Positions 4,776 through 13,115 of a stretch of 64,000 nt of DNA are shown here, piece by piece (positions within the stretch are counted from its first letter, which is position 1; each line of letters begins with the position of its first letter). Below the pieces are notes generated by a model that worked only from the letters and a program-made list of their open reading frames with translations, searched no databases and had not been told where the DNA came from. The position numbers and the translations under genes were made by a program. The stretch comes from a bacterium (GTDB lineage: Bacteria > Desulfobacterota > Binatia > DP-6), in contig JAHCID010000002.1 in assembly GCA_026129405.1 (NCBI GenBank), positions 62,001-126,000 of the forward strand. Reading direction: 5' to 3'.

Positions 4776-7700
4776 TCAGGGCAGCGGCGGGCAGCCGTTC
4801 GGCGCCGGCGTGTTCGGCGCACCGAGGAAGCGGCCGGGCCGGTCGCTCTTCGCCGTCGAGCGTTGCTTTCCGCGCGGCTTCGCCGGTGCGGCCGCGCACC
4901 AGCCGCCGGAGACGAAGAGCCCGGGTGCGAGCGTCACCGCGACGCGGCCCTGTGCCGGCTCGTCGAGCGTATAGCCGAGGCCCTTCGCGCGCACGCGCAG
5001 CAGATCGGGACCGAGAAGGACGCTCTTCACGGGGCCGCGCCCGCGGAAGCGGTAGCCTTTGGCCCTGCGCTCCGAGCCGGCCAGCCGCCAGCCGTCTCGC
5101 GCGAGCGCGACGCGCGTCGCATCGGCGGTGAAGCCCGCGCCGTAGACCTGGAGCACGGCGCCCCAGCGGGTCGGATCGAACGCCGAGTCGCGCGGCGGCG
5201 GGACGACGCGCGCCGCGGCCGCGTCCTTGCGTGTCTTCGCCGCGAACGCCGCCGTCGCGGCCACGCGCCCGCGCAGCGCCAGCGCCGAGGTACGGATCGG
5301 GACGCGTGCGAGCGGCAGCGGGTCGCCCTCGGGGCGGCTTGTGGCGTCGGCGGGATCGGTGCCGGCGTCGAGCTCGTCGCGGTCGAGGAAGCCGTCGCCG
5401 TCGCGATCGATGGCGCGGCGCGGGCCCTCGCCGGGCGGCACGCAGGTGAGCGTCAGCTCCTGCCCGGCGATCGCGGCCTGCGCGACGAGCGCGCCGGCGG
5501 CGAGCGGCGGCTCGGCGCGGCGGTCGGAGACGAAGAGATCGTCCGCGACCGCGATCCAGCCGCGCGCCTCGCCGGCGAGCACGCCGTGTGCGACGAGATC
5601 GCAGTCGCCCGCGGCGGCGCGCGCGCGCAGCAGCGCGACGCGGTCGGCCGCGGCGTCGGCCGGCGTCACGGTCGCCTGCTGGCCGACGATCGGCGCCAGG
5701 TCGGTGTCGAAGGCGAGGAGGAAGGCCTCGAGCTCGCGGCGCTCGGCGTCGGTCAGCGTGAACTCGCTGCCGCCGAGGAAGCGCGCGATGGTGTCGACGC
5801 TGCCGTCGTGCGTAAAGCCGAAGCCGCGGATCTGCGGACCGGTCGCGGCGCCGCCGCCGCCGCCGAGCGCCGGCACCGGTGGGACCCCGAACATGCCCAC
5901 CTTGGTGTAGAGATTCCGCAGGTGCGGGATCTTCATGAGCTGCGGCCCGCCCTGCAGCGCCGACTGGCCGTCGGCGCCGAACGCGCCGTCGCGCGGCGAC
6001 AGCGCGTGGCAGGCGACGCAGTTGAAGCCGGCCTGGTCGGTGACGCGGCCGACGAAGAGGTCGCGGCCCGCCTGCTGCTCGGGCGACAGCGCGCCGTCGA
6101 GCGCCCGGTTCGGGTTGGGCGGGTAGACGATCTGCAGCGCGAAGTCGGCGAAGCGGCGCATGGCGGCGGCGTCGATCGGGCCGCCGCGGCCGAGGAGGCC
6201 GTCGAACGCGACGTCGAACGCCTCGAACGCCTGCGTCGTGTCGAGCGCGTCGCCGTCGTCGAGGTGGCCGCCGGTGCGGTCGCCGCGCCAGTGCATCGGG
6301 CCGTTCCGGGCGAGGCCGCGCAGGCTCTGCGTCTGCATCGGGCCCTTCATCGGATGGAACGGCTGCGCCTCGCCGAAGTGGATCGGATTGGGATTCGCGA
6401 GCACGGCGGCGTCGGGGTTGCCGAGGTCCCAGGCGAGGCCGTCGACGTCGCCGCCGAGGTGGCAGCTCGCGCACGACGCCTCGCCGTTGCTCGACGTCGC
6501 GCGCGCATCGTAGAGCAGCGGCCGCCCGGCGACGACGCTCGCCGGCTCGGGATTGAAGAGCGGCTGGTGGTCGATCTCGCGCCGGGTCGCGAGGTCGACG
6601 ACCGACACCGCGTCGTCGAAGCGGGTCAGCACGTAGAGGCGCCCGCGCGCGGCGTCGACGACGAGGCCGCTCGGGCCGCCGCCGGTGAGCGGCACGTGAT
6701 CGGCGACGTCGGGCGTGAACGTGCCCGCCTCGAGCGCTGCGGTGTCGACCGCGGCGACGACGCCGGAGCCGAACGCGGCCACCCACAGCGTCGCGCCGTC
6801 GGGCGAGATCGCGAGCGCCTGCGGCAGCGCCAGGCTCTTCTCGGCGACGCCGGGCGGGCTCGGCACGACGCCGTAGTCGATGTGCGGGTTCAGGTGGTGC
6901 GGCGCCGCCGGCTCGCCGTCGCGCAGCACGGTGATGCGCGACTCGTGCAGGCGGCCGCGCACGGTGCTGCCGCCGAGGACGCCGGGGCCTTCGAAGCGCA
7001 CCTCGTTGCGCGCCTCGGTGCCCGCGACGTAGAGCGCGCCGCTCGTCGGGTGCGCCGCCATCGCGAACAGCGCGGTGCCGACGTGGGCCCAGTCGGTGGT
7101 GACGGCGAGCGTGGTCGCGTCGATGCGGAAGACGTCGCGGTCGGGCAGCGTGAAGCGCACGGCGTCGTCCCAGACGCGGCCGAGCCCGTCGCGCCAGTGC
7201 TCGGTGGCGCGGTCGAAGGCGACCACGAGGCCGGTCTCGGGGCCGGGAACGCCCTCGACGTTCGCGACCGGACCCGGGAGCCCGCCGGGCATCACGAGCG
7301 GGCCGAGCGCGCAGGGCGCGGCGCCGGGGCCGCCGTCGCAGACGGCGCCCTCGTGCACGATCGTCGTCTGGTTGCCGGACTGGAAGACGGCGGCGTAGAC
7401 GGCGGCGCCGTCGGGCGAGACGGCGAGGGCGCGCGGCGTGTCGCCGAAGAGCGTGACGATGCGGACGGGCGTGGCGGCGTCGCTCGCGGCGTCGAACACC
7501 CACACGTCGGCGCGGCCGACGCCCGCGGCGCCGGCCGGCGCAGGCCCGGGGTGGTGCTGCCCGCGGTGCGCGGCGGTGACGAAGGCGCGGCCGCCGGCGA
7601 AGACGACGTCGCGCGGCTCGTCGCCGACCGGCAGCGTGCGCACGACGCGCGGCGCGCCGCCGTCGAGGCGCACGACGCTGACGCTGTCGGAGAGGTGGTT

Positions 7701-7976
7701 CACGACCCACACCTCGGCGTCGGTGCGTGCGGCGACCGCGACGGGCTCGAGGCCGACGCTCACCGAGCCCGTGTGGCGCAGGCCGCCGGCGCCGACGTCG
7801 AACACCTCGAGGCGGCCGTCGGGCGTGTTGGTGGCGAAGAGACGGCTGCCGTCGGGGGAGAGGGCGAGCGGCCGGACCTGGCTGGTCTCGAACGTGGTGA
7901 AGGTCGCGGCGGCGGGCCGCGACGCGACGACGCTCAGCACGGCCAGGAGGAGAGCCGCGGTCCGCACGGCCCGCAT
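4776..7976 (-). CDS. Exported YVTN-type beta-propeller fused to dihaem cytochrome c peroxidase-like domain
   Basis: 1066 residues from the ATG at 7976; earlier in-frame starts would put the signal peptide internally. Residues 1-23 are the signal peptide (VVASRPAAA). Residues ~25-440 contain repeated strands of the type LALSPDGSRLFATN, AVSPDGAAVYAA and AISPDGATLWVAA, a YVTN/surface-layer propeller. Two haem sites follow, CASCH near residue 502 and CVACH near 653, in a CCP/MauG-like context. A calcium-loop DRDGDGFLDRDELDAGTDP lies near 860, then a C-terminal region I do not recognise. Proteins of this layout act in the periplasm as electron-transfer or oxidising enzymes for a protein or small-molecule partner. 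It is divergent from the histidine-N-terminus gene at 8193, and the shared 216-bp gap holds inverted repeats. A related dihaem protein lies at 10133. Confidence 0.85.
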   Translation of the reverse strand: MRAVRTAALLLAVLSVVASRPAAATFTTFETSQVRPLALSPDGSRLFATNTPDGRLEVFDVGAGGLRHTGSVSVGLEPVAVAARTDAEVWVVNHLSDSVSVVRLDGGAPRVVRTLPVGDEPRDVVFAGGRAFVTAAHRGQHHPGPAPAGAAGVGRADVWVFDAASDAATPVRIVTLFGDTPRALAVSPDGAAVYAAVFQSGNQTTIVHEGAVCDGGPGAAPCALGPLVMPGGLPGPVANVEGVPGPETGLVVAFDRATEHWRDGLGRVWDDAVRFTLPDRDVFRIDATTLAVTTDWAHVGTALFAMAAHPTSGALYVAGTEARNEVRFEGPGVLGGSTVRGRLHESRITVLRDGEPAAPHHLNPHIDYGVVPSPPGVAEKSLALPQALAISPDGATLWVAAFGSGVVAAVDTAALEAGTFTPDVADHVPLTGGGPSGLVVDAARGRLYVLTRFDDAVSVVDLATRREIDHQPLFNPEPASVVAGRPLLYDARATSSNGEASCASCHLGGDVDGLAWDLGNPDAAVLANPNPIHFGEAQPFHPMKGPMQTQSLRGLARNGPMHWRGDRTGGHLDDGDALDTTQAFEAFDVAFDGLLGRGGPIDAAAMRRFADFALQIVYPPNPNRALDGALSPEQQAGRDLFVGRVTDQAGFNCVACHALSPRDGAFGADGQSALQGGPQLMKIPHLRNLYTKVGMFGVPPVPALGGGGGAATGPQIRGFGFTHDGSVDTIARFLGGSEFTLTDAERRELEAFLLAFDTDLAPIVGQQATVTPADAAADRVALLRARAAAGDCDLVAHGVLAGEARGWIAVADDLFVSDRRAEPPLAAGALVAQAAIAGQELTLTCVPPGEGPRRAIDRDGDGFLDRDELDAGTDPADATSRPEGDPLPLARVPIRTSALALRGRVAATAAFAAKTRKDAAAARVVPPPRDSAFDPTRWGAVLQVYGAGFTADATRVALARDGWRLAGSERRAKGYRFRGRGPVKSVLLGPDLLRVRAKGLGYTLDEPAQGRVAVTLAPGLFVSGGWCAAAPAKPRGKQRSTAKSDRPGRFLGAPNTPAPNGCPPLP

Positions 7977-8025: not shown

Positions 8026-8044
8026 CTGCGACCACGTGTCGCAG
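8026..8044. promoter_or_regulatory. Inverted repeat, candidate operator copy 1
   Basis: Arms CTGCGAC and GTCGCAG, perfect over 7 bp, separated by CACGT. It lies 50 bp upstream of the minus-strand dihaem/propeller gene start. Closely similar sequences occur at 8138 and 8908. The binding protein is unknown. Confidence 0.5.
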
Positions 8045-8097
8045 CACCGCGAGCGGGGCTCGGCTGCATGCCCGGCCCTCATCGCCTTCATGGCGCC

Positions 8098-8112
8098 GTT
8101 CCGGTACGGAAC
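8098..8112. promoter_or_regulatory. Inverted repeat in the divergent intergenic region
   Basis: GTTCCG and CGGAAC arms around GTA, a perfect 15-bp element between the two copies of the CTGCGAC motif. It could be a second regulator site; no experimental meaning can be assigned. Confidence 0.3.
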
Positions 8113-8137
8113 CGCCCATGGCAGCCGCGACCCGGTC

Positions 8138-8156
8138 CTGCGACCACGTGACGCAT
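8138..8156. promoter_or_regulatory. Inverted repeat, candidate operator copy 2
   Basis: CTGCGACCACGTGACGCAT differs from copy 1 (8026-8044) at two of 19 positions and keeps TGCG/CGCA symmetry. It lies 37 bp upstream of the ATG at 8193. Centres of copies 1 and 2 are 112 bp apart. Confidence 0.5.
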
Positions 8157-8192
8157 CCCGCCGACGAGAAGCGACCTCTACGGTGCTTTGCC

Positions 8193-8876
8193 ATGCGTCG
8201 GGCCGTCGTCCCCGCGGTCGTGCTGGGCGTGCTCTTGTCCGGCGGCATGGCCTTCGCGCACTCCGGTGGGCCCATCGGCGAGGTCACGAACGATGCGCTC
8301 AGCTTCGGCGATCCCGATCCGTCCGGGATCAGCTACGAATGGACGCTGCGCATGCACCGCCGGCAACGGGCGCAGCTCGTCTACGCGGTCGGAGCCAAGA
8401 GCTGGAGCGAGCCGTCCAATCCCGAGGGTCTGAAGGGATGGACCCATACGTCGAACTGGATCGCGCTCGATCTGCGCGAGAAGGCGAAGCTCGTCATCAC
8501 GGTGGAGCGCCAGCAGGGCGTGGTCGTGACGAGCGGCACGACGGCGGGCGTCGCGCGCTCGGCGCTGGTGCCGGCGCTGTCGATCTACGACGGGTGGGAC
8601 GACACGACCGAGTTCGAGACCCACACGTTCAACAACGTCGGCAACTTCTGGTCGACGATCGTCTACCGCGGCCACGCCGCGAATCCGAAGTCGAAGACGA
8701 AGGTGACGTACAAGGCGAAGCTGCCGGCCGGTCGCTACAGCATCGTCGTCGGCGGCAACCCGGCGTCGCTCGGCGACCCGAGCGCGTATCCCGCTGCGAC
8801 CTGCGATCCGCTCGACCCGGTGTGCTACGCGTACACCGGGCTCCAGGGCTACCGCGTCATCGTTCAGACGCGCTGA
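8193..8876 (+). CDS. Exported protein with predicted mature N-terminal histidine, paralog A
   Basis: 227 residues. A clear signal peptide (1-22) ends MAFA, so cleavage after AFA leaves His23 as the first mature residue. Landmarks shared in order with the next gene are AVGAKSW (65-71), GWTH (82-85), YDGWD (132-136), a histidine beside TF (144-146) and GRYSIVVGG (180-188). A CDPLDPVC cysteine pair (204, 211) lies near the end. The remainder alternates strands, as in a small beta-sandwich. Known: a mature N-terminal histidine is the first copper ligand in CopC, PmoB and lytic monooxygenases. Inferred: this may be a periplasmic copper protein, with His85 and His144 as further candidate ligands. 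No named family is recognised. It diverges from a dihaem cytochrome gene with shared inverted repeats between them. Confidence 0.85.
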   Translation: MRRAVVPAVVLGVLLSGGMAFAHSGGPIGEVTNDALSFGDPDPSGISYEWTLRMHRRQRAQLVYAVGAKSWSEPSNPEGLKGWTHTSNWIALDLREKAKLVITVERQQGVVVTSGTTAGVARSALVPALSIYDGWDDTTEFETHTFNNVGNFWSTIVYRGHAANPKSKTKVTYKAKLPAGRYSIVVGGNPASLGDPSAYPAATCDPLDPVCYAYTGLQGYRVIVQTR

Positions 8877-8907
8877 TCCGCCTCCCGCGGCGCGGCATCA
8901 CACCGGC

Positions 8908-8926
8908 CTGCGACACTGTGTCACAT
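8908..8926. promoter_or_regulatory. Inverted repeat, candidate operator copy 3
   Basis: CTGCGACACTGTGTCACAT matches copy 1 (8026-8044) at 14 of 19 positions, including CTGCGAC and GTGTC, and contains a perfect GACAC-T-GTGTC core. It lies 84 bp upstream of paralog B at 9010. Confidence 0.45.
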
Positions 8927-9009: not shown

Positions 9010-10131
9010 ATGCGACTGTCGAAACATCTCGTGCCGGTGCTGGTCGCCGGCGTGCTCGCCGGAGCGCCGCAGGCGTTCGGGCACGCGACGTACAACGTCT
9101 CCGGCTACGGCTCCGGCCTCGGCGGCAGCACCAACGGCGTCGACGGCATGCCGGCGAACGCGTCGTCCCTGTGGACGAACGGTCCCGTCGACGGCCTCGT
9201 CACCGCGCTGCCCGTCATGTGGTACGCGGGCATGCACGGCGTCACCACGGCACGTACGATCCAGACGGGTACCGCGCCCGCGCCGTCGGGCAGCCTGCTC
9301 GCGCAGATCGAGTCGTACAACGCGGAGAACGAGCCCGACCTTCCGACCGACGCCGTGCTCGCCGTCGGCGGCAAGTCGTGGACCGACCCCGACAACGACG
9401 GACAGGGCTGGGGCCACGGTCTCGACTACGGCCTGATCCACGTGTCGCCGCTCGAGGACCTGCGCGGTGAAGGGCTCGTCAGCCTGACGCTCAACCTGGC
9501 GGACGATCCGAACGACGGTGCGACCGTGCGCCTCGCGATCGCGGTGTACGGCGGCTGGGACACGGGGGCCGGGGCCGTGCGTCACCAGACCTTCGTCACC
9601 GCCCCGAGTCCGGTCGACGACCCGCTCGGCACCACCGGGCTCGAGCTGCTCGGCTTCGCGATCGCGTCGGCCGCGGGCCAGCCGGTGACCCTCAGCATCC
9701 CGGTCACGCCGACGTACGAGGGCCACTACTCGGTCTTCGTCGGCGCGCTCGACGGCGTCGCCGGCCAGTACACGCTCACGATCTCGCCGGTGGTGAGCAC
9801 CGAGCTCGCGCAGTGCACCGCCGACCTGGCCGAGAAGACGAGCCAGGTCGCGTCGATCACGGCCGAGCTCGCCGCCGCCACCGCCGACGCCGACGGCGAC
9901 GGCGTGCGCGACGCAGCCGACGCCTGCGCCGACACGCCCGCCGGCGCGGTCGTCGACGCCCGCGGCTGCTCGCAGGCGCAGTTCTGCGGCGCGGTCGACG
10001 TCTCGACCAAGGCCGGCCGCAACGTCTGCAAGAAGTCGGACTGGAACAACGACGAGCCGCTCATGAAGAAGAAGCAGGCCGACTGTCGCTGGAACAAGGC
10101 GACCAAGCGCTGCGAGGCGACCACGCCGTAA
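9010..10131 (+). CDS. Exported protein with predicted mature N-terminal histidine, paralog B, with calcium-loop tail
   Basis: 373 residues, ATG preceded by a strong GGGGAGGAC site. The signal peptide ends QAFG, leaving His25 (HATYN) as the predicted first mature residue. Blocks shared with the upstream gene in the same order are AVGGKSW (118-124), GWGH (133-136), YGGWD (180-184), RHQTF (191-195) and GHYSVFVGA (238-246). It is longer than paralog A in two ways: an insert after the N-terminus (about 30-110), and a C-terminal part with a short coiled stretch, a DADGDGVRDAADACADTP calcium-loop motif of thrombospondin type-3 kind, and a Lys/Cys-rich end. It is followed one base later by the dihaem peroxidase gene, so the two are probably co-transcribed. 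The copper-binding role is inference from the N-terminal histidine and conserved histidines. Confidence 0.85.
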   Translation: MRLSKHLVPVLVAGVLAGAPQAFGHATYNVSGYGSGLGGSTNGVDGMPANASSLWTNGPVDGLVTALPVMWYAGMHGVTTARTIQTGTAPAPSGSLLAQIESYNAENEPDLPTDAVLAVGGKSWTDPDNDGQGWGHGLDYGLIHVSPLEDLRGEGLVSLTLNLADDPNDGATVRLAIAVYGGWDTGAGAVRHQTFVTAPSPVDDPLGTTGLELLGFAIASAAGQPVTLSIPVTPTYEGHYSVFVGALDGVAGQYTLTISPVVSTELAQCTADLAEKTSQVASITAELAAATADADGDGVRDAADACADTPAGAVVDARGCSQAQFCGAVDVSTKAGRNVCKKSDWNNDEPLMKKKQADCRWNKATKRCEATTP

Positions 10132-12063: not shown

Positions 12064-12963
12064 TCACGCCGCGGCGAGCCGCGCCTTGAGCCGGGGCGTG
12101 ATCCAGTCGACGAACGTGCGCACCTTGAGCGGCAGGGGGCGTCGCCCCACGCACACGACGCTGACGGGCCACGGGACGGGCTCGAAGGACTCGAGCGCGA
12201 CCTCCAGGAGCCCGGCGCGCCGGGCCGCGGCCATCTTGTAGGACATCACCCTGGTCACGCCGATGCCGGCGATCGCGGCGTCGATGGCCGCCTCCGCGGT
12301 GTTGACGATGAGCCGCGGACGGATCGGGACCAGGATCTCGCGCGTCCCCTTGGTGAACGTCCAGGCATGCGGCGCGCCGAAGCTGTCGAAGGTGACGCAG
12401 GCGTGTGCGGAGAGCGCGCCCGGCGACTGGGGACGCCCGCGCACCGCGAAGTAGGCCGGGCTCGCGCACACGACGTGCCGGATCGATCCGACCCGCGTCA
12501 TGATCAGATTGCTGTCCGGCAGGCGCCCGATCCGAATCGCGACGTCGAGCTTGCTCGCGTGGAGATCCTGCAGCTGGTCGCTGAGGAGGAGGCGCAGATC
12601 GACGTCGGGATACTCGCGCAGGAACTCCACGGCGATCGGCAGCAGGTGCAGATGGCCGAGCATCACCGGGGCGGTGACCGCGAGATCGCCGCGCGCCGTA
12701 CGGTACTCGCCCGACGCCTCGCGCTCGGCTTCCGTCACCTGCTCGACGATGCGCCGGCAGGCCGCGACGTACGCCCGTCCGGCGTCGGTCAGGGTCGTGT
12801 GACGCGCCGAGCGGCGGAGGAGCGAGCTCTTCACGTGCTGCTCGAGCTCGGCGATCTTGCGGCTCACCGTCGCGAGCGGCATCCCGAGCTTGCGCGAGGC
12901 GGCGGACAGACTGCCAGCGTCGGCGACTGCGATCAGAACCGACATGGCGTCGAACCGGTCCAT
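12064..12963 (-). CDS. LysR-family transcriptional regulator
   Basis: 299 residues from the ATG at 12963, chosen because AGAAGGA lies nine bases upstream and the helix-turn-helix starts immediately ([18 protein letters not shown]). The N-terminal winged HTH covers residues ~1-60 with [20 protein letters not shown]; the remainder is a periplasmic-binding-type effector domain. Members of this CrgA/DsdC-like group usually control the adjacent divergent gene. Here that is the alpha/beta hydrolase at 13116, and the 152-bp gap contains two inverted repeats. The inducer is not predictable. The end is followed by only 68 bp before the dihaem peroxidase 3' end, in convergent orientation. Confidence 0.9.
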
Positions 12964-12983
12964 CGGCGCATCCTTCTGGGAAT

Positions 12984-13000
12984 CGAGAGACGACCTCTCG
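12984..13000. promoter_or_regulatory. Inverted repeat between lysR and hydrolase gene
   Basis: Perfect 6-bp arms CGAGAG and CTCTCG around ACGAC, 21 bp upstream of the lysR ATG. Its position suits autoregulation by the LysR protein. Confidence 0.4.
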
Positions 13001-13040
13001 TCTACCAGGACGTGTGCGGTGTGCGCCAATGAGCTACTGC

Positions 13041-13054
13041 GCGAGCATGTTCGC
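13041..13054. promoter_or_regulatory. Near-palindrome between lysR and hydrolase gene
   Basis: GCGAGCATGTTCGC is symmetric at 12 of 14 positions. It lies between the LysR-proximal repeat and the hydrolase start, where an activator site would be expected. Confidence 0.25.
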
Positions 13055-13115
13055 TGCACAGCAATCCCGAGCCCGCGCGAATCGCCCGGTGTGGCGCATG
13101 CCGAAGGCGATCCTC

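Follow-up and report, generated by a model that had tools for sequence, protein, structure and literature searches.

Inverted repeats at a Binatia copper-haem module as candidate operator sites of a RegB/RegA-type redox system

We have identified three inverted repeats that are very probably (at a probability of about 0.86, judged from sequence) operator sites of a RegA/PrrA/ActR/SpdR-type response regulator, tying a copper-haem module to the RegB/RegA redox system. They lie within 900 bp of each other in the window, by which we mean the whole 64-kb stretch of Binatia DNA that was analysed (contig JAHCID010000002.1, positions 62,001 to 126,000). We infer that RegA would bind to each palindrome as a dimer, 37-117 bp ahead of the start codons, and would jointly switch, up or down, its own RegB/RegA pair, the dihaem enzymes and the CorA-like copper proteins. 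The input would come through RegB; the redox state of the quinone pool or the respiratory chain is the likeliest candidate, perhaps with a link to copper supply.

Three boxes and the genes downstream of them

The features of the locus are listed below; matrix scores are explained in the next section.

4776-7976, minus strand: propeller and dihaem protein, 1066 aa, predicted target of box 1; YVTN beta-propeller repeats, with weak MbnH-like and hydrazine-synthase-like matches
8026-8044, no strand: RegA-type box 1, CTGCGAC-CACGT-GTCGCAG, upstream of the propeller-dihaem gene; matrix score 19.9
8098-8112, no strand: GTTCCG-GTA-CGGAAC repeat
8138-8156, no strand: RegA-type box 2, CTGCGACCACGTGACGCAT, upstream of paralog A; matrix score 20.6
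8193-8876, plus strand: paralog A, CorA/MopE-like copper-binding protein with a signal peptide, predicted target of box 2; Pfam match just short of cutoff, profile match, and fold match of a moderate-confidence model
8908-8926, no strand: RegA-type box 3, CTGCGACACTGTGTCACAT, upstream of paralog B and the adjoining MauG/MbnH-like gene; matrix score 22.6, the best of the window
9010-10131, plus strand: paralog B, larger CorA-like protein, predicted target of box 3; aligns with paralog A across the copper-site residues
10133-11995, plus strand: MauG/MbnH-like dihaem enzyme; CCP_MauG Pfam match, MbnH/MauG NCBIfam matches below cutoffs

A sequence-only reading of the window had placed three copies of one inverted repeat at these positions, and all three are there. 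Box 1 (CTGCGACCACGTGTCGCAG) is a perfect 7-5-7 inverted repeat (7-bp arms, 5-bp spacer), and boxes 2 and 3 differ from it as that reading had described, box 2 at two positions and box 3 with 14 of 19 positions matching. Its spacing needed correction: the motif given as CTGCGAC-N4-GTGTCGCA is one base off, and for this reason a literal search fails to retrieve the three sites even with three mismatches allowed. The common form is TGCGAC-N5-GTCGCA, and boxes 1-3 are the only sites with one mismatch or fewer to it within the window. With start codons estimated, box 1 precedes the probable start of the propeller-dihaem gene (minus strand, 7976) by 50 bp, box 2 lies 37 bp upstream of paralog A (8193), and box 3 lies 84 bp upstream of paralog B (9010). 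The MauG/MbnH-like gene begins after a gap of 1 bp and is probably co-transcribed with paralog B, so that box 3 probably serves both. A further perfect repeat, GTTCCG/CGGAAC, is present between boxes 1 and 2 as had been noted, but a functional role for it finds no support; it is judged to be chance because the window holds 57 perfect 6-3-6 palindromes and the related loci checked lack the repeat. A scan for sigma70-type promoters found none.

Several comparisons relate paralog A to the CorA/MopE family of copper-binding proteins. Its score against the Pfam model Cu_bind_CorA (PF18252) is 26.6 bits, short of the gathering cutoff of 27, and an ortholog scores 22.1; we therefore regard paralog A as a probable relative of the family and not as a certified member. 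A profile match to CorA (4bz4) was obtained at an E-value of 6e-4, and in the profile alignment the GWTH segment of paralog A is aligned with CorA and MopE. W83 and H85 are invariant and H144 is nearly so, giving the pattern W83-x-H85 plus H144. The copper ligands of CorA are Kyn62-x-His64 and His114 (PMC3912023), and Kyn62 and His64 correspond to W83 and H85. The distal His114 probably corresponds to H144, as suggested by spacing, the profile alignment stopping before H144. A structural model of moderate confidence (pLDDT 68) matches CorA with a Z of 9.6 over 145 residues and MopE with a Z of 8.9 over 150, but shorter jelly-roll domains score equally. A plasmid search with paralog A returned no match.

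The module as a whole resembles two known arrangements. CorA of Methylomicrobium album and MopE of Methylococcus capsulatus sit with a dihaem peroxidase-like protein that is proposed to oxidise tryptophan to kynurenine, and both systems are copper-repressed (PMC3912023). The pairs CorA-CorB (M. album) and MopE-SACCP (M. capsulatus) thus share with the Binatia locus a copper-binding surface protein beside a dihaem peroxidase-like protein; in addition, a propeller-dihaem protein and two paralogs are present in the Binatia module. The propeller-dihaem gene is kept in relatives that have the module. A literature search for a RegA-type regulator of CorA/MopE genes found none.

Occurrence of the site in the genome and in related Binatia

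Counts of the motif in its own genome are uninformative as a test. In 5.63 Mb, TGCGAC-N5-GTCGCA has 34 sites with one mismatch or fewer, two of them perfect, against 93 for the reversed control, which is background frequency; three of the 34 are the boxes at the module. A more degenerate pattern, YGCGRCVHNDBGYCGCR with one mismatch, was tried and rejected, its 1330 hits being swamped by the GC-rich background. Because the motif had been picked from this very place, it was tested out of sample.

Orthologs of paralog A were identified in two related genomes (G105 and G106) and orthologs of paralog B in three (G001, G105 and G106), and at the orthologous loci the palindrome again precedes these genes; for paralog B the box is present in all three. 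In 146 kb of RegB loci and loci of the CDIC-motif family, own genome excluded, TGCGAC-N5-GTCGCA occurs eight times perfectly and 23 times with one mismatch or fewer, whereas 180 permuted half-sites of the same composition gave means of 0.08 and 1.2 in the same DNA. The spacing is equally specific: spacers of 0-4 and 6-12 bp yield zero perfect copies in the 146 kb, and only 5 bp gives any. In a larger set of 319 kb of relatives, which partly overlaps the first, 28 of 37 sites fall in windows upstream of module genes, which make up 6.8% of bases (p 1.5e-25); rearranged half-sites averaged 0.28 upstream, with a best of 5. The relatives' sites precede CorA-like, CCP, CDIC, MbnP-like, regB and regA genes at a median distance of 64 bp to the start codon. 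The proposal that the three transcription units share one regulator gains strong support from this conservation in front of the corresponding genes of other genera, and from the occurrence of the site in the promoter of a regulator, regB-regA.

A matrix was then built only from these 28 upstream sites of the relatives, and the own-genome sites were scored with it. Since the matrix was trained on one-mismatch sites, ranking among all own-genome sites with one mismatch or fewer is the fairer test, although it is not fully independent, the training sites having been chosen by motif match. The five best are the regB promoter (22.7), box 3, box 2, a site between a truncated globin and an EutB-like gene (20.5) and box 1, all of them intergenic; the sixth (18.1) is coding. 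Within the window, boxes 3, 2 and 1 rank first to third and the fourth site drops to 14.6. The sequence-only reading had named background frequency without upstream bias as the outcome that would tell against the motif: the raw frequency is indeed about that of background, but the five sites ranked highest by the relatives' matrix are all upstream of genes. Outside the palindrome the information content of the matrix sites is near zero, so the site is not an extended repeat.

The globin/EutB site is the second perfect site of the genome (L140:14206-14222; G000:C2:690205-690221) and is likely a further target of the same regulator. It lies between the truncated globin gene (minus strand) and a plus-strand gene that we take, from its sequence, to encode the large subunit of ethanolamine ammonia-lyase (EutB). 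Another genome, G095, has a one-mismatch site (L145:6564-6580) flanked by genes for a secreted protein and a HupE/UreJ-like protein; the product of a gene close by resembles a metal ABC-transporter binding protein. An identical palindrome, TGCGACGGCACGTCGCA (either strand), recurs in several Binatia genomes (G001:C22:83815, G001:C54:11782, G068:C8:21505, G094:C129:350, G096:C8:65719, G103:C378:6801 and G106:C510:1713); it is perhaps part of a conserved RNA or protein gene and not a regulatory site.

In a class-wide search, RegB orthologs were present in 23 of 148 genomes, with a clear break in score (above 270 bits versus below 120), and the CDIC-motif family linked to RegB was present in about 30. 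Perfect sites number 49 in the 23 RegB-positive genomes and 40 in the other 125. The control pattern, too, is commoner in RegB-positive genomes (p 0.003), and for this reason the motif-to-control ratio is the figure to use; it gives an odds ratio of 3.1 (p 2.6e-5), in a comparison whose genomes are not independent of phylogeny. At one mismatch or fewer, 11 of 20 CDIC loci from RegB-positive genomes are without a site, and the contrast between RegB-positive and RegB-negative genomes at single CDIC loci is weak (p 0.10), so not every genome or gene keeps the strict site. In 136 kb of Nitrospira and Verrucomicrobia loci with a CorA_A/MauG module, the one site found lies inside a coding region; since the module occurs in those two groups without the box, the predicted regulation through it is so far a Binatia trait. 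In the Nitrospira and Verrucomicrobiales MAGs (L158-L172), CorA_A-like genes occur, often several in succession and mostly near MauG-like or propeller genes, with no RegA-type box. The CDIC family, whose members start with CDICA(I/V)Y (L064:8719-9819; L049:718-2025; L051:1598-2641), shows linkage to dihaem genes and to RegB/RegA throughout Binatia, often with a site upstream. It has no firm Pfam match and is a possible outer-membrane barrel.

The RegB/RegA-type pair and known RegA-type boxes

A regulator whose own promoter carries the motif had been proposed as a thing to look for, and the regB-regA promoter of this genome has the site. The pair is encoded on another contig (C4), with regA at about G000:C4:146150-146711 (or 146120-146701), just downstream of regB. 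The site, TGCGACCATGTGCCGCA, lies 117 bp upstream of regB and is the best-scoring copy in the genome; in at least eight genomes such a site lies in the promoter of regB or of regA. In G105 and G106 the module itself encodes a sensor kinase that contains GGASNPF, as well as a response regulator whose sequence ends in LHRRSLQRKLQKYPPNQ; together they form a RegB/RegA-type pair, and the RegA of this genome is 63% identical to the module-borne RegA of G105. By far the best NCBIfam matches of the two proteins are ActS/PrrB/RegB and ActR/PrrA/RegA, but the equivalog cutoffs are missed (234 versus 350 bits for RegB, 181 versus 250 for RegA), so we call the pair RegB/RegA-type, meaning divergent relatives and not certified equivalogs. 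RegB has GGPYNPF and the His box AAHELGTPL, and its relatives have GGASNPF, GGPFNPF or GGPLNPF; we take GGxxNPF to be the quinone motif of RegB. RegA consists of Response_reg and HTH_8 domains, a Fis-type HTH fused to a receiver, and its DNA-binding domain, including a PrrA-like recognition helix, aligns with PrrA 1umq and with 3rqi.

The N-terminal membrane part of the RegB-type kinases (L064:6833-8161) has a His-rich stretch, HAMHGHGG here, HAGHAGHGMG in G105 and HHPLALGSAEHAHHGED in G144, which is possibly a metal-binding loop. Cys156 of R. capsulatus RegA is, as we read it, the cysteine of the PrrA segment YEMCDRN; at the aligned position this genome encodes Ser, and G105, G106 and G144 encode Cys. 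R. capsulatus RegA binds copper, and copper plus oxygen cross-link it at Cys156 (PMC9147068), a mechanism that cannot be assumed here because of the Ser.

The boxes themselves agree with published ones. Boxes 1-3 and the relatives' sites have the GCGAC/GTCGC inverted repeat of RegA/PrrA/ActR/SpdR boxes. In Caulobacter crescentus, SpdR binds CTGCGAC-N5-GTCGCGG in gel shifts, and the perfect CTGCGAC-N5-GTCGCAG, to which box 1 is identical, has been proposed as its best site (PMC4830024); SpdS/SpdR are RegB/RegA homologues (PMC6530869). SpdR is reported to target genes of stationary phase, cspD and CC0517 among them, whereas the Binatia targets would form a copper-haem module with several sites at one locus. 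The RegR motif of Bradyrhizobium, GNGRCRTTNNGNCGC (PMC5506826), fits a related Binatia site, TGCGACATTTGGTCGCA, and the RegA/PrrA/RegR boxes of Rhodobacter and Bradyrhizobium are likewise GCG-type inverted repeats, bound by Fis-type HTH response regulators. Proteobacterial RegA/PrrA/RegR sites are degenerate and of variable spacing, whereas in the Binatia sites the spacer is strictly 5 bp. By their sequence, the latter belong to a known kind of box, the RegA type, in an unusually strict form.

Competing readings and significance

Chance palindromes in a GC-rich genome, or copies of a repeated mobile element, are a negligible prospect, and for the family of sites this reading is already refuted. 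Raw genome-wide counts at background and the commonness of six-base inverted repeats here would suit it, but the out-of-sample conservation is specific for half-site and spacing, and a mobile element is at odds with the lack of information beyond the palindrome. It is improbable, too, that the sites bind some other transcription factor, be it another Fis-type response regulator or the LysR protein encoded at 12064-13059, and that the link to RegB/RegA is incidental. The genome has about 70 receiver-domain matches and the LysR gene adjoins the module, yet the LysR promoter has no site, the regB or regA promoters of several genomes do, and the site equals the SpdR/RegR-type box, with spacing and half-site as in RegA-type boxes.

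That RegA has a wide, global redox regulon like that of Rhodobacter, with the module one of many targets and many degenerate sites escaping the strict pattern, is a serious though not the favoured possibility; it is compatible with operator sites for RegA as to what binds and differs on the size of the regulon. RegA/PrrA regulons of Proteobacteria are global, and neither for PrrA by ChIP-seq (PMC4263372) nor for RegA of Acidithiobacillus (PMC5506826) did a strong consensus emerge. The strong globin/EutB site and the relatives' sites near HupE-like and other genes point the same way, but just five high-scoring upstream sites were found among the own-genome sites with one mismatch or fewer. A narrower role, in which the Binatia RegB/RegA would be a dedicated copper or copper-redox sensor chiefly controlling CorA/MopE-type copper acquisition and the dihaem maturation enzymes, is rather unlikely; in its favour are the His-rich RegB loop and the report that R. 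capsulatus RegA binds copper, and the Ser at the position aligned with Cys156 runs counter.

With the three repeats read as operator sites of a RegA-type regulator, a redox regulator family studied mainly in Proteobacteria is now linked to a copper-binding/dihaem module in an uncultured phylum. The strict Binatia box is useful because RegA/PrrA sites elsewhere have resisted consensus definition. A testable candidate regulator is thereby offered for CorA/MopE-like genes and, if the copper-sensor role were true, it would supply the missing regulator for the CorA/MopE class of copper-responsive genes.
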